DNA of 32,025 bases, taken from the NCBI GenBank assembly GCA_022729915.1, contig DZBP01000014.1:1-32025 (forward strand), in the 5' to 3' direction. The DNA comes from Draconibacterium orientale. GTDB taxonomy: Bacteria; Bacteroidota; Bacteroidia; Bacteroidales; JAIFNL01. The translations under genes were made by a program, and so were the position numbers. Position 1 is the stretch's first letter, and every line of letters starts with the position of its first letter. Shown in pieces: positions 500 to 18,547 of the stretch. Under the pieces are notes generated by a model. The model did not search any database. It was not told where the DNA came from and saw nothing but the letters and a program-made list of their open reading frames with translations.

Positions 500-1450
500 T
501 TATTTCTTATAAAAAATTAAAATATTTTGCAAATTGTTTAGTTTTATCATTTCTAAAAAAATAAAACTCTGATTCTCAACTAGTTTAATATATTCACCTA
601 TTTCCCTTTCTCTTCCGCTTGTCATCAATTTCATATTCAAATTAAGTAAAGCAAACGATGAATCTTCTTTATCTACGTAATTTTCAATTAAATACAATTT
701 TCCATTTGAAGGCAAAGCTTCGTAGCAATTTTTTAGAATTAAACTTGCTTCTTCGTCATTCCAATCGTGAATTACTCGGCTCAAAATCAAAGCATCAGCA
801 ATTTTTGGTATCATAACAAAAAAATCACCAATTACTTTTTCAAAAACAGACTCCTCAATTAAATCAATAACTTCTTCTTTATCAAACAAATAACACTTAA
901 TTTGCGGAAATTTTTGAGCAATAATAGAAACCAACGCACCTAAACCTCCGCCAATATCCATAATAGCTTGATGGTTAGAGAAGTCAATAAATTCAGGCAG
1001 TTTTTCATAATCGTCGCGAGCATATTCATACATAGCTTTGTGATAGATTTTCAGCTCATTAGGATTATTTTCGATGTACGAAAAATAATTCTCGTCGCCT
1101 TGCATTTCAAAATAGGATTTTCCAACTTTAAGCGAAAAACTTAAATTCTGCCAAGCACACAAATGTTCTTCTGCCCACAAAATACAAGAATATTTTAAGC
1201 TTTTAGGGTGATTTTCGGTCAAAATTGTTCCATTTTCGGTCAGTTTTATTTCATTTTCATAATTTATAAACTGCGAATTGTGAAGTGCCTGAAGTAAAAA
1301 ATGCAAAAATTCGTTGTCGAACTTACCTTTTGCAGCAAGCAAATCTAAGGAATAATTACCTTGTTCTATCAAGTCGAAAATATTCAATTCGCAAGCTGTT
1401 TTAACGGCTAAATATTCCCAATGTGCTGTAAAAAAAGATTTTAACTCCAT
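500..1450 (-). CDS. SAM-dependent O-methyltransferase, acetylserotonin/caffeate OMT-like family
   Basis: A protein of 316 residues with the layout of family-2 O-methyltransferases. An N-terminal winged-helix dimerisation domain (about 10-100) is followed by a Rossmann SAM-binding domain. The SAM loop is MDIGGGLGAL at 164-173, the motif GDFF at 208-211 precedes the next strand, and SRVIHDWND around 224-232 carries the likely catalytic base H228 with D229. Relatives methylate hydroxyl groups on small molecules, often polyketides, tetrapyrrole-like or aromatic products, rather than nucleic acid. The substrate cannot be told from sequence. It starts 10 bases after the phosphatase stop and abuts the repeat-protein start, so it belongs to the same operon as the radical SAM gene. 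That points to small-molecule or peptide tailoring. The family call is firm and the pathway is inferred. Confidence 0.88.
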   Translation of the reverse strand: MELKSFFTAHWEYLAVKTACELNIFDLIEQGNYSLDLLAAKGKFDNEFLHFLLQALHNSQFINYENEIKLTENGTILTENHPKSLKYSCILWAEEHLCAWQNLSFSLKVGKSYFEMQGDENYFSYIENNPNELKIYHKAMYEYARDDYEKLPEFIDFSNHQAIMDIGGGLGALVSIIAQKFPQIKCYLFDKEEVIDLIEESVFEKVIGDFFVMIPKIADALILSRVIHDWNDEEASLILKNCYEALPSNGKLYLIENYVDKEDSSFALLNLNMKLMTSGREREIGEYIKLVENQSFIFLEMIKLNNLQNILIFYKK

Positions 1451-1460
1451 TTTTTGAATA

Positions 1461-2030
1461 TTAAAACTCTAAAACAAGTCCACCTAAAAACAAAATCCAA
1501 TTTTCTTTCGAATAAATTTTTCCGGAAAAATGAAAATCAAAATTAGCAATTACAATGTCGTGAGTTACAAAGATTGTAATTCCCTCATTTATTGTATTTT
1601 CCTTAATAAATTGGTACAAAATCTCAAATCCATCGCGCCCACGAATACCCGGAATTTTTATGCCAGACACATAGTCATGGTACATTTTTTCGTAGCCAAA
1701 TTTCAAAAAATATTCGCCGACTTCTTGTGGATTTTCAATGAAAGCTCCAGGCTCACCTAAAAGATTATTTACCTCAATATCAACACTTTGCTTATAAGCT
1801 TTTACAATTTGCTTGCCCGTTTGCACGCAACGTTTCACTGGGCTTGAAAAAACTTTATTTATCTTATAATCAATTAATTGCTCACCAAATTGGAAAGCAT
1901 TTTGTTTTCCTTTGGTGTTAAGCTCTACTTCGTCGCCAAAACTGCCTTCGGGAATTTTATTACGGTCGGCATGGCGAATAAGCAATGCTATCTTTTTATT
2001 TTTTTCAAATTTATCAAGTCGTTTAAGCAC
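1461..2030 (-). CDS. Histidine phosphatase family protein (phosphoglycerate mutase-like)
   Basis: A protein of 189 residues. The branch-1 catalytic motif reads LLIRHAD, with R19 and H20 (the phospho-acceptor) after a short beta strand. SSPVKRCVQT at 62-71 supplies the second conserved arginine (R67), and VTHD at 155-158 supplies the second active-site histidine (H157). The fold therefore has the full catalytic set for removing phosphate from a small molecule or phosphoprotein. The usual RHG is RHA here, which is common in the family. The start codon overlaps the end of the radical SAM gene by eight bases, and the methyltransferase begins 10 bases downstream, so expression is coupled. In this setting it probably dephosphorylates an intermediate of the cluster's product. 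The substrate is unknown. Confidence 0.88.
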   Translation of the reverse strand: MLKRLDKFEKNKKIALLIRHADRNKIPEGSFGDEVELNTKGKQNAFQFGEQLIDYKINKVFSSPVKRCVQTGKQIVKAYKQSVDIEVNNLLGEPGAFIENPQEVGEYFLKFGYEKMYHDYVSGIKIPGIRGRDGFEILYQFIKENTINEGITIFVTHDIVIANFDFHFSGKIYSKENWILFLGGLVLEF

Positions 2031-3078
2031 CTTTTCTCCTCATTTTACAGATTTTACATAATTCAAATTGCTTGTAATTTTGTACCAAATATACATATTT
2101 TTCTGAATTTAACACTTCAATCAGTTTATTTTGTGGATAATTTCCAAAGTCGCCCAAACTATTTCTAAGCTCATCGGGAGCACAACACGGCGAAATTTTT
2201 CCGGTTGCCGAAATCCAAAGTTCCTTTTCTAAAAAAGGACATTCATAATTTTCGGGTATTTCATTTTCCGCTGATAGTTTTTCAAGCTGAAAAGGAGTGA
2301 AATTTTCTAAAACAATTTTATTGCCATTTTTGAGCCTATATTTTTCGATAGCTTCGTGAGTTTTTTCAACAAGTTCGTTCCATTTTTGCCTACTTTCGAG
2401 CGAATTTTCAAACGAAAAAGGTTTAATTTCGTCAAAATGAGTCCACAAATGATGACCTTTGATGCGGTCAATTCCTAATTTTGCTGCAAGCTTCACTATT
2501 TCAGGCAGTTCGTGCATATTGTTTTGCATAAAAGTTAGCTGAAAAGTTATGCGGCTATAAAATCCGGTTGAGGTAAAGTGCTGATTTCTATAATTTACAA
2601 ACTCACGAATGTTTTGAATTTGTTGTTGAAAATCAATGCCTTGCATAATATTTTCGGCAGTTTTTGCAGTAGCTCCGTTTATAGAAATTTTGGTATCGCT
2701 CGTTACCGGAATTATCAACTTAGCCCAATCTTGAACCGTTTTTTTAGGAAAAGTTCCGTTTGTAGTTAAATTTATTTTTATTTGGTATTTTTTAGCCAAC
2801 TCAAAAAACAGGTCAATATACTGATAAAGAAGAGGTTCGCCCATAGTTGAAGGAATAATTTCTTCCACTCCTAAATTTTTAGCTTCTAAAAAAATGTTTT
2901 CTATCCATTCTTTGGGCATCAAACGTCGTTTTATGCCCGTTTTTTCAAATAATTTTTGTTTAAAATCAGAAAACTCAGAATGTTCTTCGCACATAATACA
3001 ATGCAAATTGCAATCTTCAGGATTTGTATCGAGCGTAATACGTTTTAAGGTATTTGAGCTTTTAATTTTATAAATCAT
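2023..3078 (-). CDS. Radical SAM protein with SPASM-like C-terminal cysteines
   Basis: A protein of 351 residues. The radical SAM [4Fe-4S] motif is C23-x3-C27-x2-C30 (CNLHCIMC), followed by the glycine/glutamate region STMGEPLLY near 77-85, as in peptide-modifying and heme-pathway radical SAM enzymes. The C-terminal quarter has further cysteines: one in the CPFLE segment, a CC pair in GKISPCCAP, and a final C-x2-C (CKIC). This is a SPASM/twitch-like arrangement that would hold one auxiliary cluster. SPASM proteins commonly modify ribosomal peptides or sugars. No short precursor-peptide gene is visible upstream, so the substrate may be a small molecule. It is the first gene of a four-gene operon and overlaps the phosphatase start by eight bases. 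Its upstream region is shared with the divergent ATPase gene. Confidence 0.88.
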   Translation of the reverse strand: MIYKIKSSNTLKRITLDTNPEDCNLHCIMCEEHSEFSDFKQKLFEKTGIKRRLMPKEWIENIFLEAKNLGVEEIIPSTMGEPLLYQYIDLFFELAKKYQIKINLTTNGTFPKKTVQDWAKLIIPVTSDTKISINGATAKTAENIMQGIDFQQQIQNIREFVNYRNQHFTSTGFYSRITFQLTFMQNNMHELPEIVKLAAKLGIDRIKGHHLWTHFDEIKPFSFENSLESRQKWNELVEKTHEAIEKYRLKNGNKIVLENFTPFQLEKLSAENEIPENYECPFLEKELWISATGKISPCCAPDELRNSLGDFGNYPQNKLIEVLNSEKYVYLVQNYKQFELCKICKMRRKGA

Positions 3079-3118
3079 TGATATTTAATATTATAAACTC
3101 ATTTTTATAAACTAAAAA

Positions 3119-3218
3119 TTTTCAAGTCTATTTGAAAAAATTACTATTTTAACTAAAATTTTCAAGTCTATTTGAAAAAAATACTATTTTAACTAAAATT
3201 TTCAAGTTAATTTGAAAA
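3119..3218. repeat. Three tandem 20-bp palindromes, TTTTCAA-N6-TTGAAAA, spaced exactly 40 bp
   Basis: Copies lie at 3119-3138, 3159-3178 and 3199-3218. The first two have the same six-base centre (GTCTAT) and the third differs (GTTAAT), while the seven-base arms are perfect inverted repeats in all three. The 20-bp linkers are also conserved (xCTATTTTAACTAAAA type). The array lies between the divergent radical SAM operon and the ATPase gene. The last copy sits just before a -7 promoter box, which suits a dimeric DNA-binding protein. Two more copies occur downstream of the ATPase gene. Confidence 0.85.
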
Positions 3219-3226
3219 ATAGTTAG

Positions 3227-3234
3227 TATATTTG
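3227..3234 (+). promoter_or_regulatory. Putative -7 box TATATTTG for the ATPase gene
   Basis: A perfect match to the Bacteroidota -7 consensus TAnnTTTG, 30 bases before the ATG at 3265. No good TTTG sits at the expected -33 position; that place is taken by the third palindrome (3199-3218). A protein bound there would cover the upstream promoter region. Confidence 0.5.
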
Positions 3235-3264
3235 TAAACTAAAATCTCACAAATATATTGAATT

Positions 3265-4554
3265 ATGTTAGAAAATTTATACAAAAATATATCAAAATAC
3301 AATTATTGGAAAAAAAAAGAATTTCACTTAGGCGTAATGCGTAGTGTGTATTTGCAGAAAATTTCCAAATTCATTGGAAATAAACTTATTAAAGTACTAC
3401 TTGGGCAACGTAGAGTAGGTAAAAGCTTTATTTTAAGACAAATAATTTTTTTTCTCATCACAGAAAAAAAGGTCAATCCTAAAAATATTTTTTATCTAAG
3501 CAAAGAATTTATTGGCTTAGATGCCGTTAAAAATAGTCAAATTTTGAATGATTTATTTCTTTTGTATCAAAAAAAACTAAAAGTAACCGGAAAAATTTAC
3601 ATCTTTTTAGACGAAGTTCAAAACATAGCAGAATGGGAAAAGTTTGTAAACTCCTATTCACAAGATTTCACAGGCGAATATGAAATTTTTGTAACTGGCT
3701 CAAATTCAAATCTTTTATCGGGTGAACTTGCCAGTTTATTGTCTGGGCGATATGTTGAATTTATGATTTTTCCATACAATTACTCTGAGTTTTTGGAGGT
3801 TTATAAGCTAAACAACGAAAAGGAAAGCTATCTAAAATACTTAAATATAGGTGGATTGCCCGAAATTGCTAATTTTTCGGAACCCGAAATTGTCAAAAAT
3901 TATATTGAGAGTTTGAAAAATACAATCATTCTCCGTGATGTTATTGAGCGGCACGCAATAAAAGATGTTTTGTTGCTCGAAAATTTGTTCAAATTTTTGT
4001 TGGCAAACATCGGAAATTTGACTTCATACACGGCAGTTGTAAAGTATTTTAAAAGCCAAAATAAGCGAACAAACTACGAAACTATCTCAAGCTATGTAAA
4101 TTACATTTTGGATACTTTCACCTTTTATCAAGCCGAGCGTTTCGACTTGAAAGGCAAGCAAGTACTTTCAGGAGTTAGAAAATTTTATTTAAACGATTTG
4201 GCTTTTCGATATTATTTGCATGGTTTTAAAACCCAAGATTTTGGATATATACTTGAAAATCTTATCTATATGCAACTTATAAATCATGGATTTAAAATTT
4301 ATGTCGGCAATTTGAATAACTTAGAAATTGATTTTGTAGCTGAAAAAAGTCAGCAAAAAATTTATATCCAAGTTGCTTATTTACTGCACAATAATCAAAC
4401 TATCCAACGAGAATTTGGAAATTTGCAGAAAATAAACGATAACTATCCAAAAATTGTAGTCAGTTTAGATGATATTAAATTCTCTGATAATGAAGGAATT
4501 ATACACATACAGGCTTGGAATTTTGAGCAATGGCTTATTGCTAATTTTTCATAA
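3265..4554 (+). CDS. AAA-type ATPase with C-terminal DUF4143 (restriction-endonuclease-like fold)
   Basis: A protein of 429 residues. Walker A is GQRRVGKS at 47-54 and Walker B is IYIFLDEV at 111-118. A sensor segment, VTGSNSNLLSGE, runs from about 143 to 154 and is followed by the family's GRYVEF strand. A winged-helix-like region comes before the C-terminal DUF4143 domain. There E331, E354/D356 (EIDFV) and the strand IYIQV at 366-370 mark a PD-(D/E)xK-like core in which the usual E-x-K of the last strand is replaced by Q-V-A, so nuclease activity is doubtful. These ATPases are common, often multicopy, and of unknown function in Bacteroidota and archaea. The gene stands alone and is bracketed by five palindromic repeats, suggesting a self-regulating or mobile unit. 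Confidence 0.9.
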   Translation: MLENLYKNISKYNYWKKKEFHLGVMRSVYLQKISKFIGNKLIKVLLGQRRVGKSFILRQIIFFLITEKKVNPKNIFYLSKEFIGLDAVKNSQILNDLFLLYQKKLKVTGKIYIFLDEVQNIAEWEKFVNSYSQDFTGEYEIFVTGSNSNLLSGELASLLSGRYVEFMIFPYNYSEFLEVYKLNNEKESYLKYLNIGGLPEIANFSEPEIVKNYIESLKNTIILRDVIERHAIKDVLLLENLFKFLLANIGNLTSYTAVVKYFKSQNKRTNYETISSYVNYILDTFTFYQAERFDLKGKQVLSGVRKFYLNDLAFRYYLHGFKTQDFGYILENLIYMQLINHGFKIYVGNLNNLEIDFVAEKSQQKIYIQVAYLLHNNQTIQREFGNLQKINDNYPKIVVSLDDIKFSDNEGIIHIQAWNFEQWLIANFS

Positions 4555-4602
4555 TTAAAACGACATTTTCTATATGAATAGATAAATTAATTATAATTAA
4601 AA

Positions 4603-4662
4603 TTTTCAAGTCTATTTGAAAAAATCACTATTTTAACTAAAATTTTCAAATAGACTTGAAAA
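4603..4662. repeat. Two further palindromes of the ATPase-flanking family, second copy inverted
   Basis: Copies lie at 4603-4622 (identical to the first upstream copy) and at 4643-4662 (same arms, centre in the opposite orientation: ATAGAC). They are again exactly 40 bp apart with the same linker. They fall between the end of the ATPase gene and the end of the convergent DUF1294 gene, so they cannot be promoter operators for either. The five copies bracket the ATPase gene like the ends of a unit. Confidence 0.85.
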
Positions 4663-4671
4663 ATATTTTTA

Positions 4672-4980
4672 CTAAAAATCATTTCTTCTTTTTAATATTT
4701 TTTTTGATATAATTCTGAAAATGAGAAAGTTAAAAACAATAAGCAACGGGACACCAAAATAAAATTTTGGTTTTCTAACTTTATGCCAAAAGTACAACAT
4801 ACCTATTCCTTCGCCAATTGCGCCGCCTATGGCTGCTTTAACTATTAATTCCTTTTCCGAAATTCGCCATTTATGGTTCTCTGCGCTGCGTTTATCTTCG
4901 CCCATCAGATTGAAAACATGAATGTTAATAAAAAATATGTAAACTAATAAAACTAAAAATAATAATCGTTTGAATAACAT
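4672..4980 (-). CDS. DUF1294 family small membrane protein
   Basis: A protein of 102 residues. An N-terminal hydrophobic helix (about 5-22) is followed by a polar stretch, DKRSAENHKWRISEKEL, and then by GGAIGEGIGMLYFWHKVRKP and a second hydrophobic helix near 75-92. The order D-K...A...RI-x-E...GG-x2-G...HK-x2-KP is the signature of DUF1294 membrane proteins, whose function is unknown. The start lies three bases after the stop of the glycosyltransferase gene, so they are cotranscribed. The gene ends next to the inverted palindrome downstream of the ATPase. Confidence 0.75.
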   Translation of the reverse strand: MLFKRLLFLVLLVYIFFINIHVFNLMGEDKRSAENHKWRISEKELIVKAAIGGAIGEGIGMLYFWHKVRKPKFYFGVPLLIVFNFLIFRIISKKILKRRNDF

Positions 4981-4983
4981 AAC

Positions 4984-6240
4984 TTATTGAATTAATGATT
5001 TATAAATTGAATTAAGTATTTTACAATGTTCCTCAATGCTTGACACTTCTCCATTTTCAGAATATAAATAACCTCTTTCGCCTAATCTGCTCATTGTTTG
5101 TGGATTATCAACTGCAAATTGCATTTGTTCGTACAAGCTCACCACGTTTCTATGCTCAAAAAGCAAACCATTTACTTGATTTTGAACATATTCAGACATT
5201 CCACCAATATTTGCAGTTATTACTGGAATTTTACAAGCCTGAGCTTCGTGAATAACCAAAGGCGAATTTTCAGCCCAAATGCTCGGAACAACTATGCAAT
5301 GTACTTGATTAAAGACAGTTAGAGCCAGATTATGGTTCAGATACTCGCCACAAAACTCTATTTCGTTTTGTGAACTTTCAGCCATTTTTTGCAATGCACT
5401 TGTATTTTGTCCATCGGGGCGACCAAAAATTTTTAGCTTTGCTTTGGTTTTCAACATTTTAAAGGCTTCCACTAGCAAATTAATTCCCTTTGCCGGAATA
5501 TGCGTACCTATGTAGCCAAAAGTGTAACTATCTGTTAATTTGTTAGTTATAGATTTAAAATAGTGTGTAGGAAATCCATAATCGAGATAAATTACTTTTT
5601 CTTTTGGTAAGTCAAAATCGCTTACAAATCGATTCATCAAATACCTTGAAGGCGCAATGAATAAATTAATTTTTTTGGTAATTTTTCGGGTAAATTCCAT
5701 ACGCTTTTTTACCCAATTGGTATAATAGTTTTCACTCGTTTCGTTGGAAAAATACATCGAATAGCAATTTGATGCACATTTATTATCTTCTTGTATATCA
5801 CATAGTTTGAACAAGTTTTTGCCATCAAAATTGCGTTGCAGAAATTGTCCGCGCGGGCACATAAGCCAGAAATCGTGCAAAGTGAAAACAATCGGAATTT
5901 TATTTTTGTGCAACACATCAACCATTCCTAGCGAAAGATGATTCAGATGCCCAACGTGCGCAATATCTGGTTTTATTTCAGAAATAAGCTTTTCAAATCG
6001 TTCATTTACAACATTATGATTATAAGCATCTTTGGCTCGCGCCATATTTACATACACAAAATCAACACCTTGCCGTGTTTCCTTTCTAAATCTAAAATCA
6101 GGCTGGTATTGATTTTCTTCGCGTGTAAAAACAGTAACTTTTTCTGTTTTAATCAGCTCATTAACAACACTTTGACTGTAAACCTCAGAGCCTGCATTGT
6201 ACTGAGGTGGAAAACCGTGAATGATTTTTAAAATGTGCAT
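4984..6240 (-). CDS. Glycosyltransferase family 4 (GT-B fold)
   Basis: With the ATG at 6240 the protein has 418 residues. A longer frame begins with TTG at 6273, but that codon lies inside a terminator hairpin, so I reject it. The N-terminal half has HGFPPQYNAGSEVY near 8-21, the acceptor-side glycine loop of GT4 enzymes. Four cysteines at 128, 147, 155 and 159 recall a subgroup with a possible metal site. The C-terminal half carries GYIGTHIPAKG at 242-252 and the donor-binding E-x7-E motif ENSPLVIHE at 324-332. GT4 enzymes transfer a sugar from a nucleotide donor, retaining configuration, usually for polysaccharide, lipopolysaccharide or glycoprotein assembly. No other polysaccharide genes are close. 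It is followed after three bases by the DUF1294 gene. Confidence 0.9.
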   Translation of the reverse strand: MHILKIIHGFPPQYNAGSEVYSQSVVNELIKTEKVTVFTREENQYQPDFRFRKETRQGVDFVYVNMARAKDAYNHNVVNERFEKLISEIKPDIAHVGHLNHLSLGMVDVLHKNKIPIVFTLHDFWLMCPRGQFLQRNFDGKNLFKLCDIQEDNKCASNCYSMYFSNETSENYYTNWVKKRMEFTRKITKKINLFIAPSRYLMNRFVSDFDLPKEKVIYLDYGFPTHYFKSITNKLTDSYTFGYIGTHIPAKGINLLVEAFKMLKTKAKLKIFGRPDGQNTSALQKMAESSQNEIEFCGEYLNHNLALTVFNQVHCIVVPSIWAENSPLVIHEAQACKIPVITANIGGMSEYVQNQVNGLLFEHRNVVSLYEQMQFAVDNPQTMSRLGERGYLYSENGEVSSIEEHCKILNSIYKSLIQ

Positions 6241-6265
6241 TTCCAAAATTTTGAGTAAAAAAAGT

Positions 6266-6293
6266 AGCCCCAAAAATAGAAATTTTTGGGGCT
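6266..6293 (-). terminator. Strong intrinsic terminator after the secreted-protein pair
   Basis: A perfect 12-bp inverted repeat, AGCCCCAAAAAT / ATTTTTGGGGCT, with a four-base loop. Read on the minus strand it is followed by ACTTTTTTTACTC. It closes the 8139-6353 transcription unit and lies 26 bases before the glycosyltransferase start. The plus-strand side also has an A/T run, so weak bidirectional use is possible. Confidence 0.85.
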
Positions 6294-6352
6294 TAAAAAA
6301 AAGTTGCTAGGTTTATAATATTTCTTTCAGCAAAACCAAATCAATCACTTTT

Positions 6353-6712
6353 TTATTCATCATAAGTTACGTCATAAGTACCATCTTCATTGAGTATTAT
6401 AGTCCATATTCTGCACAAATCAGCTTGACTAAACACAATGTCAGTTTCCTCAGAAGCGTCAATGGTAATGCGAATATCAAACATACAAGTTTCGCCATAT
6501 TGCTCACCTATATCCACTGTTACCTCGGAGCCATTTGTAAACATTTCTCCGAGTAAATCCTCTCCCCAGTTTGAATCTTCAGCCGGACTTAGATACAATC
6601 CATATAAATCGTAACCCGTATTGTTAGTGATACTAAACGTAAGTGCTTGGCTAAAGCCATAACTTACTGAAAGTAAAACAAAAATTAGCAATACAAATAA
6701 TTTTCTTTTCAT
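6353..6712 (-). CDS. Small secreted protein of unknown function
   Basis: A protein of 119 residues with a typical signal peptide (MKRK, hydrophobic core, likely cleavage near SYGFSQ at 17-22). The mature part, just under 100 residues, starts FSITNNTGYDLYGLY and has SPAEDSNWGEDLLG at about 42-55, then alternating strands and a late DLC motif. This pattern of asparagine/threonine-glycine, then W-G-x-D/E-x-L-G, then a (W/F)DI strand and DLC is a recurring secreted beta domain in many bacteria with no known role. Two cysteines (in ETCMFDI and DLCRIW) could form a disulfide after export. It starts only five bases after the stop of the repeat protein and shares its terminator, so the two are coexpressed. 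Confidence 0.75.
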   Translation of the reverse strand: MKRKLFVLLIFVLLSVSYGFSQALTFSITNNTGYDLYGLYLSPAEDSNWGEDLLGEMFTNGSEVTVDIGEQYGETCMFDIRITIDASEETDIVFSQADLCRIWTIILNEDGTYDVTYDE

Positions 6713-6717
6713 TTTTT

Positions 6718-8139
6718 TTATTTTTTAATAAATTTAAACATATTTTTACTTGTCTTACTTTCAATATTTAAAAAATAAATACCTGAATTTAAATTAGATA
6801 CATCTATTTGATTTGTAGTTAATGCTTTTTTTTCTATAATTTTACCTGATACATCAGTCAATGTAAAATTTAAAGCATCAGTTGTATTTGCGTGAATGTT
6901 AATATAATCAACTGCAGGATTAGGTGAAATAGTCATAGCAATATTCTCAATTTTATCAATTCTTGTAGTAACTTCACCTTCCTCATTTGCTTTAACTAAA
7001 TATACATCAGAATCTCCATTGTCATCTTCTTGTGAACCGGCACAAATAAAGCCATTATCAGATGTAAAAGAAAAATTATTGAAGTGTTCATCATAAGCAT
7101 CTCCATAAATAACTTCGCCCAAAATATCGCCAGTTGCAGGGTCTATCAAAACTAAATAAGCATCAGTATCACCAGCGTCAAAATTAGTAACATAGCCACC
7201 TATGAAAACATCATCATTTTTATCTACATAAACACTATAGGCGTTATCATCATCACCATCATAATCAAATGTATATGAGTATAATTCTGTACTTCCATTA
7301 CTCGAAATGCGAGTTAAAGCCATATCTAAATCACCATTAGTAACATCCTCTTCGGCACCAACAATCAAATAATCACCATTTTCTAAAATAATTAAATCAT
7401 TAAATAATTCATCAGCAGTGGTATTTGAATAAACTATCCATTGTTGGTCTGCATTTTCATTAACTTTTATTAGCATTCCATCAATATCTCCATTCGCTTC
7501 GTCATACGAATTTCCAACCATAATAAATCCCCCATCGGTAGTTTCAATAATAACATTAAGTTCATCATTTCCATTCAATCCATAGAAAAATTCATCAACA
7601 AAAGTGCCATCATCGTCAATAAAAGCTAACCAACCATCTGTAAATCCTTCAGTTCCTTCGGTTGACGAGCCAACAGCAGCTAACCCGCCACCCTCTAATT
7701 CAGTAATGTAGTAAAAAATATCGTCATCGCCAACGACACCATAAGTCTTATTAAAAATTTCAGTTCCAGCAGAGTTAATTTTTAATAAAAAAGCCTCTGT
7801 ATCGCCATTGGTTTCATCGGTAGTACTACCACAAATGATAAAATTACCATCAGAAGTTTCAGTTATCTTTTCAGCAAAATCATCTTCAACACCAACACCA
7901 ACATAAATTTCACTCCAAGTTTCATTTCCATTGGCATCAAATTTTGCAACAAAAACATCATAATCTCCATTTGTATCATCAAAAACATTTCCACAAACTA
8001 AATAACCTCCTCCATCTAATTCTAAGACATCAGTAGCATCATCGCCGGTTGAAAAATCATAAGTATTTTCAAATGTAATTTGTGCATAAATGCTTACATT
8101 TAAAAGCAATGCAATAAGCAAAAAGTAAATTTTTTTCAT
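6718..8139 (-). CDS. Secreted repeat (propeller-like) protein with T9SS C-terminal sorting domain
   Basis: The ATG at 8139 gives 473 residues starting with a clean signal peptide (MKKIYFLLIALLLNVSIYAQ). An upstream extension of 15 residues lacks any signal logic, so I prefer this start. The body holds about seven units of 50-55 residues with the pattern DGGGY(L/I)VCG ... D-x-NGD-x-D-x-(F/Y)-(L/V)-x-K ... G-x-E. This suggests a seven-bladed beta-propeller, and the acidic D-x-NGD-x-D turns could bind calcium. The last 75 residues (SPNPAVDYINI, LTDVSGKII, LNSGIYFLNI and a basic end) form a type A T9SS sorting domain. The protein is therefore exported, moved across the outer membrane by T9SS, and probably anchored or released at the surface. 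The ligand is unknown. Confidence 0.88.
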   Translation of the reverse strand: MKKIYFLLIALLLNVSIYAQITFENTYDFSTGDDATDVLELDGGGYLVCGNVFDDTNGDYDVFVAKFDANGNETWSEIYVGVGVEDDFAEKITETSDGNFIICGSTTDETNGDTEAFLLKINSAGTEIFNKTYGVVGDDDIFYYITELEGGGLAAVGSSTEGTEGFTDGWLAFIDDDGTFVDEFFYGLNGNDELNVIIETTDGGFIMVGNSYDEANGDIDGMLIKVNENADQQWIVYSNTTADELFNDLIILENGDYLIVGAEEDVTNGDLDMALTRISSNGSTELYSYTFDYDGDDDNAYSVYVDKNDDVFIGGYVTNFDAGDTDAYLVLIDPATGDILGEVIYGDAYDEHFNNFSFTSDNGFICAGSQEDDNGDSDVYLVKANEEGEVTTRIDKIENIAMTISPNPAVDYINIHANTTDALNFTLTDVSGKIIEKKALTTNQIDVSNLNSGIYFLNIESKTSKNMFKFIKK

Positions 8140-8221
8140 AATTTTTAATATTTTTTGATTGGGTTTCTGTTCTAAAATTCTCAAAAGAACGAATTATTTA
8201 TATATTGAAATGCAGAAAATT

Positions 8222-8238
8222 AAATACAATTTGTATTT
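8222..8238. promoter_or_regulatory. Short palindrome AAATACAA-T-TTGTATTT upstream of the T9SS gene
   Basis: Perfect eight-base arms around one base, in the 161-bp spacer between the XRE gene's end and the T9SS protein's start. It could be an operator or a weak terminator for the XRE gene. No -7 box is clear nearby. AT-rich palindromes of this size can arise by chance. Confidence 0.3.
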
Positions 8239-8300
8239 ACACTTCATGTGTTATTTCTTATTTTTGTATTTTTTTTGGGGTTTAACTAAAAAATTATTTA

Positions 8301-8588
8301 TTATTGCAAGAGATTGCTGATTTTTTCATTAATTTGCCTAATTTCATCGTAGATTTTCTCCATAATATCCTGTTGTTTTAAAGAATTAATTTCAATTTCT
8401 TCAAGCAAGTTTGACGGCTGTACACTCAAAATAGCACAAATTTCCACAAAACGCTCAAGCGTAATTTTTGCTTGTCCGCGTTCAATTCGACCATAATTAA
8501 CGGTATCTATATCAAGCTTTTCAGCTATGTAGTCTTGTGTGAATCCTTTCGATTGCCTTATTGCTCTTATTTTTTCGTGTACTGTCAT
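8301..8588 (-). CDS. XRE-family helix-turn-helix transcriptional regulator
   Basis: The ATG at 8588 gives 95 residues and places the HTH at the usual distance from the N-terminus; a longer frame to 8660 adds 24 unlikely residues. Residues 1-65 read MTVHEKIRAIRQ, GFTQDYIAEKL, YGRIERGQAKITLE and CAILSVQPSNLL, a textbook XRE/Cro-like domain with the recognition helix around VNYGRIERG. The last 30 residues are charged and predicted helical (QDIMEKIYDEIRQINEKI), probably a short coiled coil for dimerisation. It is transcribed divergently from the CARF-type sigma-54 activator, which suggests, but does not prove, a regulatory link. The target is unknown. Confidence 0.88.
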   Translation of the reverse strand: MTVHEKIRAIRQSKGFTQDYIAEKLDIDTVNYGRIERGQAKITLERFVEICAILSVQPSNLLEEIEINSLKQQDIMEKIYDEIRQINEKISNLLQ

Positions 8589-8913
8589 ATTTGTTAAAAA
8601 TAATCTTGTGCCGCTTAAAGCGTGTGATTTAATATGATTTGGTTCCATTTGGTTTTGCAAAAATATTAGTTATTCGTTTGCTATAAAAAGCGATTTGTAA
8701 TAGAAATTATGCTAAAATCGTTTATAAAATCTTTACAAATATTCACTTTCCAATAGAATAATTCAAAACCGTGCCATAAATCATACAATATTCATTATCA
8801 ATAATATAAAAATAGAACTAATAATATGAATACAATAATTTTGTCATATAAGGTATTTTAAATATCATATATTTCGCATTTTAATTTATATTTGTGCGTT
8901 TAAAATTAAAAAA
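8589..8913. other. Divergent intergenic region between XRE regulator and sigma-54 activator
   Basis: No gene is seen in these 325 bases. On the minus strand, TGGCACGG (complement of 8769-8776) matches a sigma-54 -24 element pointing at the XRE gene, but the expected -12 GC is AA. On the plus strand a -7 box lies at 8887-8894. The rest is AT-rich without clear structure. Confidence 0.5.
8887..8894 (+). promoter_or_regulatory. Putative -7 box TATATTTG for the sigma-54 activator gene
   Basis: A perfect TAnnTTTG match 19 bases before the ATG at 8914, implying a leader of about 13 bases. There is no clear -33 TTTG. It suggests that the activator itself is made from a housekeeping promoter. Confidence 0.5.
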
Positions 8914-10716
8914 ATGAAAAAAATAGAAACAATTTACATCTCATGGCATTTTACAACACACGGAATTGCTTATTTAAAGCACATATTATCAGCATTTTAT
9001 GTAAATATTATTTCAAGTGAAAATCTAAATGCACACGACATATCGCAAGAAGAAATGAGTTTGGTTTTCGAAAATCCACGAAAAGGTTTTGTTTTTGACA
9101 AAATTTACTATCTCACTGCAAATCAAAATACTTTCGACAAACTTTCTTCACGCAGATTCGCTTATAAAAATGAGATTTTAAACGACAAGGAAATTCAAAA
9201 AAGTCAAACTTTTGAAATTTGGCAAAAAATTATGGAATCAAATTTTGAGAATTTAGACGAAGAAATAAACTTTGTACGCAAAAATTATCAGGCAAAATTT
9301 GAACTTTGGAAAAACCAAATTTGGAGAAATGTTCATCATTATACTATTGAAGACCAATTAATTTGGTGGAAAAAATACAGCAATACGCATGCAAATTATA
9401 AAAATTCAGATTTTTTTGAAGAACTAAAAACGAAAGTTGTCGATTTGCGCAATCAAATAGAAATAGCTGAAAAATTAAAGCCCATAATCGACAAATTAAA
9501 AACAAAACACCCTAATGCACAGTTTATTATAAATGCAAGTTTGGGAAGTAACGAAACACAAGTAGTCTGGCAAGTTTTCAGTGAATTAAATATTTTACCT
9601 ACCCACTCGCAGCTCATTCGCAGCTACGACAATAAAATTTCTTCGCCCAACGAGCGTTTCAAACTATTTGATATTGAACAAATTCCATCAAAAATAATTT
9701 CACAAATTCAAAATTCTCTAAAATTATACAGCAAACCACCCGAAACAGCCGAACGCAAACTTGCCGAATTAAAAATGCAGCATTATTCAAAATCTGGTTT
9801 TGCCATATTAATTTTAGGTGAGCGAGGAATCGGAAAAAGCCAATTAGCTGAAAAAGTAAGAAATTCAAAAAAAAATATTACCGCTAATTGCGCATCATTT
9901 GCCGATGATACAATGGCAGAAAGTGAACTTTTCGGGTATAAAAAAGGAGCTTTTACAGGCGCAAACAGCAACAAAGACGGGCTTTTTAAAGAAGCCGAAA
10001 ATGGTATTTTATTTCTCGACGAAATTCATCATTTGAGCCTACGTGTGCAAGCAAAATTGATGAAAGCCACTGGTACTGACGAAAATAATTTCATGTCAAT
10101 CAGAAGATTAGGCGATAATCAAGAAATAAAACTAAAAACGACACTCATTTTTGCTTCCAACAAAAAGATTAGCGAACTCCGTAAATTACTTTTGCCCGAT
10201 TTTTATGATAGAATTTCGCAGCAAGTTATTGAAATTCCGCCACTTAGACAAACTCCCAATGAGCTAGAAAATGAATTTATCGCCACTTGGCAACACATGA
10301 AATTTGAACAATTTTACCCATATAAAACTTACATTTCAACTGATAAAAATTTAATAGAATGGATTAAAACGCTGGAACTACTTGGAAATTATAGAGATTT
10401 ACAAAAAATTTCTATTTTTTATAAAAATTTTCTTGATTTCAGCCGTGAAACAAAAAAATTACTTTCTGAAAAAACACCTTTTGACTTTGCAAAATCGGAG
10501 TATGAAAAATACATAGCTCAAAATTCTGATGAAAGCCAATTTGAATCCATTTTTTCAGATAAACAAACAGCAGAACAAATTGAAGATGAATTAAAAAAAC
10601 AACTTGCTTCTTGGGCTATTAAACGCTTCAAAGGCGCACCTAATGCCGCAAAACATTTTCAAAAATTGGGTGGGAAAACTACATCAGAAACTCTCTATCG
10701 TTGGGAAAAAAAATAA
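8914..10716 (+). CDS. Sigma-54-dependent activator with CARF/RtcR-like N-terminal sensor domain
   Basis: A protein of 600 residues. Residues 295-450 are a sigma-54 AAA+ domain: Walker A GERGIGKS 302-309, the sigma-54-contacting GAFTGA loop 345-350, Walker B GILFLDEIHHL 364-374 and an arginine finger at YDR (R433). The end (GAPNAAKHF..TSETLYRWEKK) looks like a Fis-type DNA-binding helix-turn-helix. The N-terminal 280 residues are not a receiver, GAF or PAS domain. The segment AQFIINASLGSNETQVVW (202-219), followed by LIRSYDN, matches the strand-glycine loop-helix of CARF domains as in RtcR (N-x-S-x-GT-x2-M-x2-VW). A Trp-rich helical insert separates this from an N-terminal strand and helix (IYISWHFTTHGIAYLKHIL). 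CARF domains bind cyclic oligonucleotides or RNA ends. No CRISPR or rtcBA genes are near, so signal and target are unknown. Confidence 0.85.
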   Translation: MKKIETIYISWHFTTHGIAYLKHILSAFYVNIISSENLNAHDISQEEMSLVFENPRKGFVFDKIYYLTANQNTFDKLSSRRFAYKNEILNDKEIQKSQTFEIWQKIMESNFENLDEEINFVRKNYQAKFELWKNQIWRNVHHYTIEDQLIWWKKYSNTHANYKNSDFFEELKTKVVDLRNQIEIAEKLKPIIDKLKTKHPNAQFIINASLGSNETQVVWQVFSELNILPTHSQLIRSYDNKISSPNERFKLFDIEQIPSKIISQIQNSLKLYSKPPETAERKLAELKMQHYSKSGFAILILGERGIGKSQLAEKVRNSKKNITANCASFADDTMAESELFGYKKGAFTGANSNKDGLFKEAENGILFLDEIHHLSLRVQAKLMKATGTDENNFMSIRRLGDNQEIKLKTTLIFASNKKISELRKLLLPDFYDRISQQVIEIPPLRQTPNELENEFIATWQHMKFEQFYPYKTYISTDKNLIEWIKTLELLGNYRDLQKISIFYKNFLDFSRETKKLLSEKTPFDFAKSEYEKYIAQNSDESQFESIFSDKQTAEQIEDELKKQLASWAIKRFKGAPNAAKHFQKLGGKTTSETLYRWEKK

Positions 10717-10745
10717 AAAAGTTACATAAACTACTTAATTTGAAC

Positions 10746-10781
10746 AAAAAGCACTGATTTAAAAGCTAAAAATTGCTTTTT
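10746..10781 (+). terminator. Weak intrinsic terminator after the sigma-54 activator gene
   Basis: An eight-base inverted repeat, AAAAAGCA / TGCTTTTT, with a 20-base loop, ending in a T run 30 bases after the stop codon. The stem holds only two G-C pairs, so efficiency is uncertain. Confidence 0.45.
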
Positions 10782-10898
10782 ATCAATTAAAAACAAAATT
10801 GTTTTCTAAAACTAGTAAAATTAACATTTCAATAAGTAGCATATAATTAAATAATTAACTTAGATATTTTCATTCATTAATTTTTTTTTTCAAAATTA

Positions 10899-10930
10899 TT
10901 TGGAAAATAAATAAAAACAAAATAAATTTG
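10899..10930 (+). promoter_or_regulatory. Bacteroidota -33/-7 promoter for the tetR-efflux operon
   Basis: TTTG at 10899-10902 and TAAATTTG at 10923-10930 are separated by 20 bases, the best -33/-7 pair in the window. Transcription would begin near 10937, giving a leader of about 90 bases that is made up almost wholly of the 13-bp repeats. Confidence 0.65.
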
Positions 10931-10941
10931 ACCAAATAGTT

Positions 10942-11019
10942 AAACTAAGTAATCAAACTAAGTAATCAAACTAAGTAATCAAACTAAATAATCAAACAAA
11001 AAGGTTAAACTACAAAATC
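10942..11019 (+). repeat. 13-bp tandem repeats in the leader of the tetR gene
   Basis: Three perfect copies of AAACTAAGTAATC (10942-10954, 10955-10967, 10968-10980) and one single-base variant (AAACTAAATAATC, 10981-10993) are followed by two degenerate copies at 10994-11006 and 11007-11019. A further degenerate unit may precede them at 10929-10941. The array ends eight bases before the tetR ATG. It makes up the 10717-11027 gene-free stretch together with the promoter and a weak terminator. It could be a multi-site operator, or slipped-strand expansion could tune expression. Confidence 0.85.
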
Positions 11020-11027
11020 AAATATAA

Positions 11028-11633
11028 ATGTCAGATATTAAACAAGATACCGAAAAAAATATCCTTGCAGCAGCTAGCCGCGTTTTCATACGTAAAGGCA
11101 TGGGAGGTACACGTATGCAAGAAATTGCCGACGAAGCTCAAATAAATAAATCCCTGTTGCACTATTATTATAGAAGTAAGCAGCTGTTATTCGAAGCTGT
11201 TTTTAAAAATACTGTGGCAGAATTTATTCTTATAATAAAAGAAATCTTTAATTCTGAGGAGGATTTAAGAATTAAAATACCCAAAATAGTACAAGTATAT
11301 ACTGACTATTTAAAGAAAAACCCATACATTATATCATTCATTTTGAGAGAATTACAGGCAGAACCCAAAATAATACTCAAAATAATTGAAATGGTAAATA
11401 TTAAATCACTCTACTTTTTTGAGCAAATAAAAGAAAATATTTCTTCTGGCAAAATAAAACCAATAAAACCTGAAGATTTATTTGTAAATATTCTAAGTCT
11501 AACAATTTTTCCAATAGTTGCAAAGCCTATTGTCAAAGCAGCATTAATGCAAAATGACAGCGAAAAATACAATGACTTTTTAGAAGAGCGAAAAAAAACT
11601 ATTTGCGAATTTATATTTTCATCAATCTACTAA
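11028..11633 (+). CDS. TetR/AcrR-family transcriptional regulator
   Basis: A protein of 201 residues. The N-terminal TetR_N domain covers about 8-60: ILAAASRVFIRKGMGGTRM, then EIADEAQINKSLLHYYYRSK, where the recognition helix and the YYYRSK turn are typical of the family. The remaining 140 residues are helical and poorly conserved, as expected for the ligand pocket. Its gene heads a seven-gene operon, 54 bases before the TolC-family gene, so it most likely represses its own efflux system and responds to a compound that the pump exports. The leader with 13-bp direct repeats is unusual because TetR operators are normally palindromes. Confidence 0.9.
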   Translation: MSDIKQDTEKNILAAASRVFIRKGMGGTRMQEIADEAQINKSLLHYYYRSKQLLFEAVFKNTVAEFILIIKEIFNSEEDLRIKIPKIVQVYTDYLKKNPYIISFILRELQAEPKIILKIIEMVNIKSLYFFEQIKENISSGKIKPIKPEDLFVNILSLTIFPIVAKPIVKAALMQNDSEKYNDFLEERKKTICEFIFSSIY

Positions 11634-11687
11634 AAAAAAATAATTTTAAAATTCAAAGTATATTAACTTATAATATTTTAATAAAAA

Positions 11688-12974
11688 ATGAAAAAAATAT
11701 ACATTGTCCTCTTTATAAATATAATAATCTCATTTACAGCACTTTCTCAAGAAAAATTCAGCTTAACGGATTGTTATAAAATTGCAACAGAAAACTATCC
11801 ACTCAACAAAAGTAAAGAGCTAAATATTAAACTCAACGAACAGAAAATTGAAAACTTAAAAACAGTTTTCCTCCCAAGTGTAAGTATCGATGCTAGAGCA
11901 AGTTATCAGTCTGATGTAATGAAAATTGGAGTAGAATTTCCTATGCTTCCACCAAGTGGACAGCCCGTTTTCCCTACTCCACCTTATCACAATGTTTATA
12001 CAGAGCTCAATATTCAACAAACAATCTGGGACGGTGGCTATTCAAAACAACAAAAAATTATTGAAGAAGCTGATTTTCAAGTAGAAATTAAAAACATAGA
12101 AATAGAAGTAAATAAACTCAAAGAACAAATTCTTGAAAGTTATTTTCTAATATTAAATATGGAACAACAAAATGAAGTTATTTCACTTTCAATCAATTCA
12201 TTAAAAGAACAACTAAAAGGTTTGGAATCAGCCTATAAAAATGGTACTTCCACTGAGGTAAATGTACTTCAACTCCAAGCTGAAATAGTAAAATTAGAGC
12301 AAAAACTAATTGAAATTGAATCAGGGAAAAAAATAGCTTATACTATTTTATATCAATTAATGGGTATCGAGAAAGAACAAGAGAAAGAAATTGCGCAAAC
12401 AAGCATTAATTACGTCCCTAACGATAGCTTTACGCGCTATGAAAATGAATTATTTTCACTTCAAAAAACAAAAATTGAAGCTTATAGCGACTTGCTTAGC
12501 ATAAATCAAAAACCCAAAGTTGGTGCTTTTGCCAAATTAGGTTATGGAAATCCGGGTCTTAATTATTTTAGTGGTGGCTGGGATACTTATTACATAGCAG
12601 GTGTAAATTTTACGTGGAAATTTTTTGATTGGAACGAGACAAATCGTAAAAAACAAATTTTCTTGATTCAAAAAGATTTAATTGATAATAAAGAGGAAAC
12701 TTTTAACAAAAACATTAATACGAACATTAAAAAACAATCGGGAGAGCTTGAAAAAATTGAAAAATTAATTGAAAAAGATGATGAACTTATAAATATGAAC
12801 AAAAAAATTGTAGAAAACTACAATTCACAACTCCAAAATGGAACAATTACTTCAAGTGAATACCTCAATCAGTGGAATAAAGCATTGATTGCAGAAATAA
12901 CAAAAAAGATTCACGAACTTGAACTTGAAAAAGTTAAAGCCATTTTGGAATTAACAATGAACAATTTTAATTAA
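11688..12974 (+). CDS. TolC-family outer membrane efflux protein
   Basis: A protein of 428 residues. A signal peptide (MKKIYIVLFINIIISFTALSQ) is followed by FSLTDCYKIATENYPLNKSK, the usual start of the OEP domain. Two long helical repeats with heptad-like leucine/glutamate patterns (about 125-215 and 335-425) fit the periplasmic barrel. Strand-like segments between them (YIAGVNFTWKFFDWNET) fit the outer membrane beta barrel. It forms the outer membrane exit duct of a tripartite pump with the downstream HlyD-like adaptor and the ABC transporter. It is cotranscribed, ending 29 bases before the adaptor start. Confidence 0.9.
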   Translation: MKKIYIVLFINIIISFTALSQEKFSLTDCYKIATENYPLNKSKELNIKLNEQKIENLKTVFLPSVSIDARASYQSDVMKIGVEFPMLPPSGQPVFPTPPYHNVYTELNIQQTIWDGGYSKQQKIIEEADFQVEIKNIEIEVNKLKEQILESYFLILNMEQQNEVISLSINSLKEQLKGLESAYKNGTSTEVNVLQLQAEIVKLEQKLIEIESGKKIAYTILYQLMGIEKEQEKEIAQTSINYVPNDSFTRYENELFSLQKTKIEAYSDLLSINQKPKVGAFAKLGYGNPGLNYFSGGWDTYYIAGVNFTWKFFDWNETNRKKQIFLIQKDLIDNKEETFNKNINTNIKKQSGELEKIEKLIEKDDELINMNKKIVENYNSQLQNGTITSSEYLNQWNKALIAEITKKIHELELEKVKAILELTMNNFN

Positions 12975-13003
12975 AATATTTTGGTAAAATAAAAAGCAAT
13001 AAA

Positions 13004-13906
13004 ATGAAAAAAAATACTGTATTATTTTTGGCAATCCTATTAGTAGGGCTATCATGTAGCTTAGAAGATGAAAAATCTGACGCTTATGGAAATTTTGAAG
13101 CTACCGAAATAATGGCATCGGCTCAAGCCGCAGGGCAATTGATTACTTTTTCGGTTGAAGAAGGTAAGGAATTATCAAAAAACGAATTAGTTGGCTTAAT
13201 CGATACCAATTTATTTTCGATAAAAAAAGAACAAATTTTAGCTAAGAAAAAATCAGTTTCAACACAAACTGATAATATTTTAGCACAAATAGAAACGCTA
13301 GAAGAGCAGAAAAAAACAGTCTTAATCAATAAAGAACGCATTGAAAAACTATTCAAAGACGGAGCAGCAACTCAAAAGCAAATTGATGAGATTGAGGGTC
13401 AATTAAATGTCCTTAATAAGCAAATAAAATCGATAAAAACGCAAAATGCATCAATTTTAAGCGAATTATTTGCACTAAACAAGCAAATTGATGAGCTAGA
13501 TTACTACATCTCAAAATGCAAAATCACGAACTCAATTAAAGGAATAGTTTTGACAAAATTTGCTGAAGAATCAGAGGTTGTAGCTCAAGGAATGCCACTT
13601 TATAGCATAGCAAACTTAGATGAACTCAGTCTTCGCATATATGTTGATGCCATTCAACTTTCTCATATAAAAATAGGAGATAAAGTGGAAGTTTTAATAG
13701 ATAAAACAAAAGACGAAACTCAAAAATTAGAAGGAATAATTCAATGGATTTCATCACAAGCAGAATTCACTCCTAAAATTATTCAAACTAAAAATGAACG
13801 AGTTAGCCTTGTTTATGCAGTAAAAGTAAGCGTTAAAAACAATGGGTATTTAAAAATTGGGATGCCCGCAGAAGTAAATTTTATAAACAGCAAAGAGTCA
13901 AATTAA
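13004..13906 (+). CDS. HlyD/YbhG-like periplasmic adaptor, lipoprotein
   Basis: A protein of 300 residues. A lipoprotein signal ends in the lipobox GLSC with C18 as the lipidated cysteine, so the protein is probably anchored in a membrane facing the periplasm. Residues 28-60 form the first half of a biotinyl-lipoyl-like domain (GNFEATEIMASAQAAGQL, VEEGKELSKNELVGLID). A long coiled coil runs from about 70 to 170 (KKKSVSTQTDNIL to KQIDELDYYI), and the second lipoyl half includes GIVLTKFAEESEVVAQGMPLY. A barrel domain ends with GMPAEVNF. This is the layout of membrane-fusion proteins that join the inner membrane ABC transporter to TolC, and it is closest in plan to YbhG. Confidence 0.9.
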   Translation: MKKNTVLFLAILLVGLSCSLEDEKSDAYGNFEATEIMASAQAAGQLITFSVEEGKELSKNELVGLIDTNLFSIKKEQILAKKKSVSTQTDNILAQIETLEEQKKTVLINKERIEKLFKDGAATQKQIDEIEGQLNVLNKQIKSIKTQNASILSELFALNKQIDELDYYISKCKITNSIKGIVLTKFAEESEVVAQGMPLYSIANLDELSLRIYVDAIQLSHIKIGDKVEVLIDKTKDETQKLEGIIQWISSQAEFTPKIIQTKNERVSLVYAVKVSVKNNGYLKIGMPAEVNFINSKESN

Positions 13907-13961
13907 TTTATATTTTTTTATCTCTAAAATATAAAATTAAATTGCTCAAAAATAAAAATAA

Positions 13962-14891
13962 ATGGTAAAAGTTGAAAATTTAACAAAAACATACGATAAA
14001 GGAAGCATTAAAGCTCTGAAAAACATCAATTTAAGTGTTGAAAAAGGAGAACTTTTTGGCTTAATTGGTCCTGACGGCGCAGGAAAAACTAGTCTTTTTC
14101 GTATTCTTACTTCTTTACTAATTCCAGATTCAGGAACTGCCCAAATTATGAACTATGATTGTGTAAAAGACTACAAAGAAATACGAAAAATAACGGGCTA
14201 TATGCCGGGTAAATTCTCTCTTTATCAAGACCTAAGCGTAGAAGAAAATCTAACGTTTTTTGCGAGTGTTTTTGGAACAAGTGTAGAGGAAAACTATTAT
14301 CTAATCAAGGATATTTACACGCAAATAGAGCCATTTAAAAAGCGATTGGCTGGAAAACTTTCAGGTGGAATGAAGCAAAAATTAGCTCTTTCGTGTGCAT
14401 TGATTCACAAACCTGAAATTCTGATTCTAGACGAACCTACTACCGGCGTAGATGCTGTTTCGAGAAAGGAATTTTGGGATATGCTCAAAAAATTAAAAAA
14501 AGAAGGAATTACTATTTTAGTATCAACGCCTTACATGGACGAAGCAAGTCTTTGCGATAGAATTGCATTAATACAAAATGGAGAAATACTTTCTGTAAAT
14601 GAACCACAAAATATTATAAATCAATTTAATAGAAAACTGTTTGCAATTCGAGCGTCAAATATGTATCAACTCATGCAAGATTTAAAACGTTTTGAGAATT
14701 TAAATACTGTATTTCTTTTTGGACAATTTGTACATTTTACCTCAAATAACAGAGAAATTTTAGAATCTGATATCTATTCTTTTTTAGAACTTAATAATCA
14801 TTCTGATATTTTTATACAAGAAATTGAACCAACAATTGAAGACTGTTTCATGGAATTTGCAAAAGTCGAAAATAGTTTTGAAAAACATTAA
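13962..14891 (+). CDS. ABC transporter ATP-binding protein, YbhF N-terminal-half-like
   Basis: A protein of 309 residues. Walker A is GPDGAGKT at 36-43, the Q-loop region is GYMPGKFSLY near 79-88, the signature LSGGMKQ is at 133-139, and Walker B LILDEP is at 154-159. The H-loop is degenerate: LVSTPYMDEA has P190 where the catalytic histidine normally sits. E. coli YbhF shows the same kind of change (a non-histidine at this place) in its first half, from memory of that protein. Residues 215-309 are an accessory C-terminal domain. It is followed after two bases by a second ATPase, and the pair should form a heterodimer with one normal and one weakened ATP site. It energises export through the two ABC-2 permeases. 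Confidence 0.9.
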   Translation: MVKVENLTKTYDKGSIKALKNINLSVEKGELFGLIGPDGAGKTSLFRILTSLLIPDSGTAQIMNYDCVKDYKEIRKITGYMPGKFSLYQDLSVEENLTFFASVFGTSVEENYYLIKDIYTQIEPFKKRLAGKLSGGMKQKLALSCALIHKPEILILDEPTTGVDAVSRKEFWDMLKKLKKEGITILVSTPYMDEASLCDRIALIQNGEILSVNEPQNIINQFNRKLFAIRASNMYQLMQDLKRFENLNTVFLFGQFVHFTSNNREILESDIYSFLELNNHSDIFIQEIEPTIEDCFMEFAKVENSFEKH

Positions 14892-18130: not shown

Positions 18131-18547
18131 ATGAAACTTTCTAATACAGCGCAATATGCAATCCGAATTTTGAATTTCATGGCAATTGAAAACCATGAAA
18201 TGGTTTCAGCCAAATATTTAATTGAAAAATTGAATATTTCGGATAAATACCTGCGCCGTATTATGACTCAATTAACTAAAGCTGAATTAATTAGAGCTAT
18301 TCAAGGAAGAGATGGCGGATATCAATTCAACAAAAAAATAAGTCAAATTTTTATAATAGACATTATAAATGCTATAGAAGATACTAAAAAATTATATGGC
18401 TGTGTTCTTGGATTTTCAGAATGCTCTGATAATGAGCCTTGTGCGTTGCATAACAAATGGGTTAAATCAAGACAAGACGTTTTGACTTTTTTTCATACTA
18501 CCTCATTAGAAGAAACTATTTTAGAAAACCGCATTTTAAAATTTTAA
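18131..18547 (+). CDS. Rrf2-family Fe-S transcriptional repressor, NsrR/IscR-like
   Basis: A protein of 138 residues. The N-terminal winged helix (MKLSNTAQYAIRILNFMA, ISDKYLRRIMTQL, GRDGGYQF) is the Rrf2 DNA-binding domain. Three cysteines, C91, C98 and C104, in the loop after the dimerisation helix match the Fe-S ligands of NsrR and IscR, with a spacing of x6 and x5 rather than x5 and x5. It lies 61 bases upstream of a nitric oxide reductase gene, and a matching inverted repeat precedes both. I therefore infer a nitric-oxide-sensing repressor: NO would attack the cluster and release the operators. Family is certain, and the NO role is inferred from context. Confidence 0.88.
   Translation: MKLSNTAQYAIRILNFMAIENHEMVSAKYLIEKLNISDKYLRRIMTQLTKAELIRAIQGRDGGYQFNKKISQIFIIDIINAIEDTKKLYGCVLGFSECSDNEPCALHNKWVKSRQDVLTFFHTTSLEETILENRILKF

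Follow-up and report, generated by a model that had tools for sequence, protein, structure and literature searches.

A CARF-bearing sigma-54 activator and the enzyme cluster that accompanies it in Bacteroidales

The window, meaning here the whole stretch of 32,025 nucleotides from Draconibacterium orientale that was analysed, encodes a transcriptional regulator that was originally predicted, from its letters alone, to be an orphan sigma-54 activator with an RtcR-like sensor and no partner genes. The question raised by this locus is what such a regulator switches on, and in response to what. Comparison with related genomes shows that the regulator is not an orphan: it travels with a mobile enzyme cluster across Bacteroidales. 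The features of the window on which the analysis rests are collected in Table 1.

Table 1. Positions of the regulator, the neighbouring genes and the candidate promoter elements in the window
Feature	Position	Strand	Basis or remark
CARF - AAA+ - HTH sigma-54 activator, 600 aa	8914..10716	+	ORF, Pfam, PADLOC, structure model, motifs
Modelled CARF sensor domain, residues 1-285	8914..9768	+	AF2, Foldseek, alignment of 12 relatives
Helical Trp-rich insertion in CARF domain, residues 71-155	9124..9378	+	Model secondary structure, alignment
GAFTGA loop (sigma-54 contact), residues 345-350	9946..9963	+	Motif inspection
Putative Bacteroidota-type -7 box TATATTTG	8887..8894	+	About 20 bp before regulator ATG
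Candidate sigma-54 -24-like element TGGCACGGTTTTGAAT	8761..8776	-	Faces minus-strand genes; same element before cluster side in relatives
XRE-type HTH protein, divergent neighbour	8301..8660	-	Pfam; kept in G001 (L011) and L020
GT4 glycosyltransferase (GT), cluster core	4984..6273	-	Pfam; 58-64% identity to GTs adjoining regulator elsewhere
DUF1294 protein	4672..4980	-	Kept beside GT in G002
AAA_14/DUF4143 ATPase gene, reversed inside cluster	3265..4554	+	Pfam; likewise inserted in G001 and G002
Radical SAM enzyme with SPASM domain, cluster core	2023..3078	-	Pfam; 59-67% identity across loci
Histidine-phosphatase-superfamily protein, cluster core	1461..2030	-	Tyrosine-phosphatase-type in some loci
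O-methyltransferase (OMT; Methyltransf_2), cluster core	500..1450	-	Pfam
WG-repeat protein, cut by contig end	1..499	-	Relatives predicted beta-propeller-like

An intact activator with a modelled CARF sensor

The regulator is an intact sigma-54 activator. Its reading frame starts with ATG and contains no internal stops, and residues 287-437 match Sigma54_activat (PF00158) in Pfam with an E of 7.5e-35. Walker A (residues 302-309), Walker B (residues 365-371) and the GAFTGA loop are all intact, bearing out the earlier description of a complete AAA+ domain; the GNxRDL motif is present as GNYRDLQ at residues 491-497, and the C-terminal HTH-like end, judged by alignment and matching no HTH family, is conserved in relatives. 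With both Walker motifs and GAFTGA in its AAA+ domain and an HTH-like end at the C-terminus, the protein has the make-up of a bacterial enhancer-binding protein. The sigma factor gene itself, rpoN, was found in 15 of 17 genomes, including both congeners, and was not found in the window's own MAG, which is 83% complete.

Residues 1-285 have no Pfam match in a scan of the whole protein. An AF2 model of residues 1-287, for which 12 relatives were the input, has a mean pLDDT of 88.3 and a pTM of 0.86, and its elements follow the order expected for a CARF fold. When this N-terminal segment (about residues 1-280), previously called CARF-like, was compared with the PDB by Foldseek, CARF proteins alone came out on top: Csm6 (E 1.8e-4), Can2, Csx1, ring nucleases, Card1 and Cad1. 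The TM-scores of these matches are modest (0.3-0.4), as expected given the insert in the domain. As modelled, the N-terminus folds as a CARF domain. The motif cited in the original prediction, NASLGSNETQVVW, does belong to the CARF domain; it lies not at the far N-terminus but at residues 207-219, in strand 4 of the model, where the alignment of 12 relatives has the motif N-x-S-L-G-S-x-E-x-Q-V-x-W (9532-9570 on the plus strand). The Trp-rich insert is real and consists of a helical insertion between strands 2 and 3. It is kept across the family, with W137 near-invariant and Q148 and W151 invariant, followed by S156 and N157.

RtcR_PspF1 is the best PADLOC family for the whole regulator, at 253 bits. 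This match was dropped as proof of a CARF domain because most of it comes from the AAA domain: the ordinary activators that almost all Bacteroidota genomes encode reach about 200 bits against the same model. The N-terminus alone gives an E of 0.0023 for the window and 5e-7 for the relative in locus L021. A sequence search of the PDB with the N-terminal alignment returned chance matches to dynein light chain and nothing else.

The neighbouring cluster and its link to viperins

The partner genes that the original prediction had not recognised form a conserved cluster on the minus strand at window positions 1-6273. The cluster begins 2.6 kb from the regulator, on the divergent strand, with the XRE gene and two other genes between the regulator and the GT gene, and its products are about 43-68% identical to unfused copies in other Bacteroidales genera. 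The AAA_14/DUF4143 insertion recurs in each of the genus's three genomes and is probably an interruption, not part of the system. Foldseek matched the WG-repeat protein to generic propellers alone, BamB-like in kind. For the radical SAM enzyme, NCBIfam offered weak matches (to tungsten cofactor maturase, among others) that lay far under their cut-offs, and these names were not adopted. Elsewhere in the window, at 18131-20843, a gene for an Rrf2-type regulator precedes one for a NorB-like nitric oxide reductase.

Relatives of the regulator, drawn from assembled genomes, place the family in 16 genomes. In most of these it adjoins, as a rule divergently, genes for a GT4 glycosyltransferase, a radical SAM enzyme of the SPASM kind, a phosphatase of histidine or tyrosine type, an O-methyltransferase and a WG-repeat protein. 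The regulator is linked to such genes or to a viperin in 12 of the 16 genomes, and all 16 have cluster genes or a viperin somewhere. Core genes or a viperin adjoin the regulator in loci L019, L020, L021, L024, L026, L027/L014, L028, L029, L075 and L076. The regulator and cluster contigs of the congener G001 have a common 91-bp end at the same place as in the window, so that a window-like arrangement is likely there. The regulator and cluster are unlinked in the assemblies of G002, G037, G078 and G783 (the genome of locus L025), which have the cluster on another contig; the regulator contig of G002 ends within the regulator gene.

Co-occurrence points the same way as linkage. Among 393 Bacteroidales genomes, 13 have the regulator, 16 have the radical SAM enzyme of the cluster and 10 have both (Fisher p about 1e-13, or 4e-10 when counted by genus). 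Pairwise distances between regulators correlate with those between radical SAM enzymes (rho 0.56, p 0.0003; without congeners, 0.43, p 0.005). A phylum-wide sample of 395 genomes contained the regulator family in none besides the window's own genome. Such a sporadic spread, together with prophage carriage of one cluster copy, fits a mobile accessory function.

That copy is on a viral contig (L084, IMGVR_UViG_2917530833_000001), where genes for GT, radical SAM enzyme, tyrosine phosphatase, OMT and WG-repeat protein occupy 7290-14654 between endolysin/holin and integrase. Its divergent neighbour is a 302-aa, CARF-less sigma-54-activator-like gene or fragment, and its WG protein is 93% identical to the copy of Labilibacter marinus. 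An Arsenophonus plasmid (L099, CP132902.1) carries genes for a GT, a radical SAM enzyme and a WG-methyltransferase fusion at 7468-12437, with the CARF regulator absent. These unannotated genes adjoin panBCE (pantothenate) on small plasmids of louse-fly symbionts, and are 51% (GT), 49% (radical SAM), 44% (WG) and 27% (OMT part) identical to the window-type core. No CARF-domain relative was found in viral contigs, and no full-length relative of the regulator was found on plasmids.

Viperin linkage is established for part of the regulator family. A prokaryotic viperin gene is divergent from the regulator in L028, as the first gene, and in L024, as the second after a small ORF (PADLOC E 8e-80 and 1e-81, respectively); the L028 protein also scores 270 bits against the NCBIfam viperin model, which has a cut-off of 180. 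In L076 a viperin gene cut by the contig end adjoins the regulator, and in G036 a viperin fragment adjoins a second, more RtcR-like CARF-sigma54 gene (L016 9329-12056, L100 87-578), the contig breaking within the viperin gene. Among 198 Bacteroidales genomes sampled at a threshold of E <= 1e-40, viperin was detected in three (G036, G562 and G576), and all three also possess a CARF-sigma54 activator; the two genes are on different contigs in G576, and viperin and GT each stand at a contig end in G562. No viperin was found in the window or in its genus (the window genome and its congeners).

Some loci have additional genes. A nucleotide kinase is encoded in L014 and L081, and a radical SAM protein of L014 is listed in PADLOC as the defence candidate PDC-M51A. 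The enlarged cluster of L081 (G783, 4352-14637) includes genes for a NodU-type carbamoyltransferase, an APH-like kinase, a cytidylate-kinase-like protein, an aldolase-like protein and extra radical SAM enzymes. In L014 (G018, 1-4753), a DUF1156-like methyltransferase and a large partner protein adjoin the regulator, which we take to resemble a restriction-type defence island.

Candidate promoters

The TGGCAC core is the textbook -24 element of sigma-54 promoters. A strict GG-N10-GC search for such promoters returned nothing useful. On the cluster-facing strand of the divergent regions, 10 of 12 loci have TGGCAY (TGGCAC/T) upstream of the cluster, versus 1.15 expected (P about 4e-7); the expectation comes from the remaining intergenic stretches of these loci, and the scoring was set after the regions had been viewed. 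The -24 half is the convincing one; the -12 half is weak everywhere and variable (TTGAA, TTGAC, TTGTC, TTTCA), and in the window element TGGCACGGTTTTGAAT it matches poorly, with a spacing one base too short. No TGGCAY was found before the unlinked clusters of G037, G078 and G783. To judge from these motifs, the cluster is likely to have a sigma-54 promoter in the family, and in the window such a promoter is plausible. The box TATATTTG is likely to be the regulator's own housekeeping promoter, and the XRE gene has its own TAnnTTTG -7 box at 8665.

What the switch may control

On balance, the regulator is probably a signal-gated CARF-sigma54 activator that switches on a neighbouring cluster for the synthesis of an anti-phage small molecule. 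Its CARF domain would restrain the AAA+ motor as long as no nucleotide or RNA-end signal is bound. The freed motor would then touch sigma-54 polymerase via the GAFTGA loop and open a TGGCAY-type promoter, driving the adjoining genes for GT4, SPASM radical SAM enzyme, phosphatase, O-methyltransferase and WG-repeat protein, a set that in other genomes also includes a carbamoyltransferase, a nucleotide kinase or viperin. The product would most likely be a modified small molecule, probably nucleotide- or sugar-derived, that acts against phage and is made solely upon infection or RNA damage. A sigma-54 promoter and a regulatory link between regulator and cluster are supported by the sequence comparisons; we further infer the identity of the ligand, the chemistry of the product and its antiviral function.

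RNA ends are the best guess for the signal of the window regulator, by analogy with RtcR, which is not activated by oligoadenylates and whose CARF domain binds tRNA fragments (PMC9650030), and with RtcR homologs linked to CoCoNuT, for which RNA fragments ending in a cyclic phosphate have been proposed as the signal (PMC11090510). Like RtcR, the sigma-54 activator of rtcBA, the window regulator has the order CARF-AAA+-HTH, the GAFTGA loop, a divergent CARF domain without K/R after strand 4 and, likely, CARF repression until a signal arrives. Unlike RtcR, it has a helical CARF insert of about 85 residues and no rtcBA partner, its partner being an enzyme cluster that in part includes viperin. In keeping with the original prediction, rtcBA and CRISPR genes are not its partners: none of the genus's three genomes (G000, G001, G002) has RtcB, which is present in only 6 of 17 genomes examined, and Cas10 is absent from the window genome and four others of seven tested, being present in G002 and G565. 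Neither RtcB repair nor Cas10-made oligoadenylate therefore looks like a required partner.

The expected novelty of the regulon appears to hold; the architecture itself is known. A 2014 paper described CARF-AAA-HTH regulators that lack linkage to rtc (PMC4012209), and one of 2024 described RtcR homologs at the head of CoCoNuT operons (PMC11090510). The RtcR_PspF1/2 proteins encoded near restriction-modification genes (PMC4012209; PADLOC PDLC01994/5) share with the window regulator its architecture, its lack of linkage to rtc and, at the level of the family, defence-type neighbours; they differ in regulon, and the PADLOC score of the window protein is mostly that of a generic AAA domain. The CoCoNuT homologs are likewise CARF-sigma54 activators proposed to turn on a defence operon upon sensing RNA ends (PMC11090510), whereas the genes controlled here would be others, mostly divergent in orientation, and no McrBC or CoCoNuT genes were seen. 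Prokaryotic viperins (pVip) occur in this type of locus in L024, L028 and L076 and beside a CARF gene in G036; the window copy differs in having none. The literature searched, with incomplete coverage, yielded no description of pVip with a CARF-sigma54 switch or with a GT4/SPASM/OMT/WG cluster, nor of the insert-bearing CARF branch with a viperin-linked enzyme cluster. The protein falls among the known CARF-sigma54 regulators of defence genes, and the regulon and the viperin link appear to be new.

A bolder proposal, offered tentatively, is that these loci are a bacterial counterpart of interferon-induced viperin, in which CARF would sense nucleotide or RNA-end signals made during infection and, via sigma-54, would induce a mobile cluster making viperin-type nucleotides that are further modified by dephosphorylation, methylation, glycosylation and carbamoylation into an undescribed antiviral compound. 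The regulation of bacterial viperins is not addressed in the literature searched, and the regulator offers a concrete switch with a defined set of genes. The result probably indicates what one branch of CARF-sigma54 proteins controls, replaces an orphan regulator by a tractable regulon, and hints that prophages may carry the means to make a new antiviral small molecule.

Several observations count against the signal-gated defence switch: in the window, the lack of viperin, the three genes between regulator and GT, the weak and mis-spaced -12 half and the separate -7 box of the XRE gene; elsewhere, the unlinked clusters of G037, G078 and G783 without TGGCAY, the Arsenophonus core without CARF, the CARF-less regulator beside the prophage copy and the failure to find rpoN in the window MAG. 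The alternative that survives best, still an unlikely one, is that the product of the cluster is a glycoconjugate, secreted or on the surface, or a natural product, and serves competition, symbiosis or stress instead of antiviral defence, with CARF sensing RNA damage as in RtcR. GT4, OMT, epimerase, carbamoyltransferase and phosphatase are enzymes commonly met in pathways for glycans or antibiotics, viperin is missing from the window copy, and the Arsenophonus core, without CARF or viperin and beside pantothenate genes, fits a non-defence product too. Recurrent linkage to viperins, otherwise rare in Bacteroidales (3 of 198), argues against this alternative, as do the linkage to PDC-M51A and the position as prophage cargo.

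It is decidedly improbable that the protein responds to RNA damage or stress in general and works in trans on scattered genes, with the cluster as a chance or defence-island neighbour. The strength of co-occurrence, the correlated distances and the divergent adjacency with TGGCAY in most loci all speak against this reading, in favour of which can be set the separation of regulator and cluster in G037, G078 and G783 and the AbiEii-like genes, named by eye, close by in L077 and L026. That the regulator is an RtcR ortholog governing RNA repair at a distance, as its CARF-AAA-HTH architecture and best PADLOC family might suggest, is scarcely credible and was already disfavoured, given an NCBIfam RtcR score of 130.5 bits versus a cut-off of 650 and the distribution of RtcB (none of the three MAGs of the genus, just 6 of 17 genomes).

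Small unnamed proteins of 72-113 aa with no Pfam match recur at the cluster start (L024 5451-5792, L026 9570-9851, L075 8946-9248, L081 13854-14072); HicA/RelE toxins adjoining viperins have been reported (PMC10865869). L020 1150-1930 and L021 9400-10010 (minus strand) contain short ORFs for a basic Lys/Asn-rich peptide of about 45 aa ending in GNRGKQxNPNQKK, which sit between the TGGCAY-like element and the next genes.
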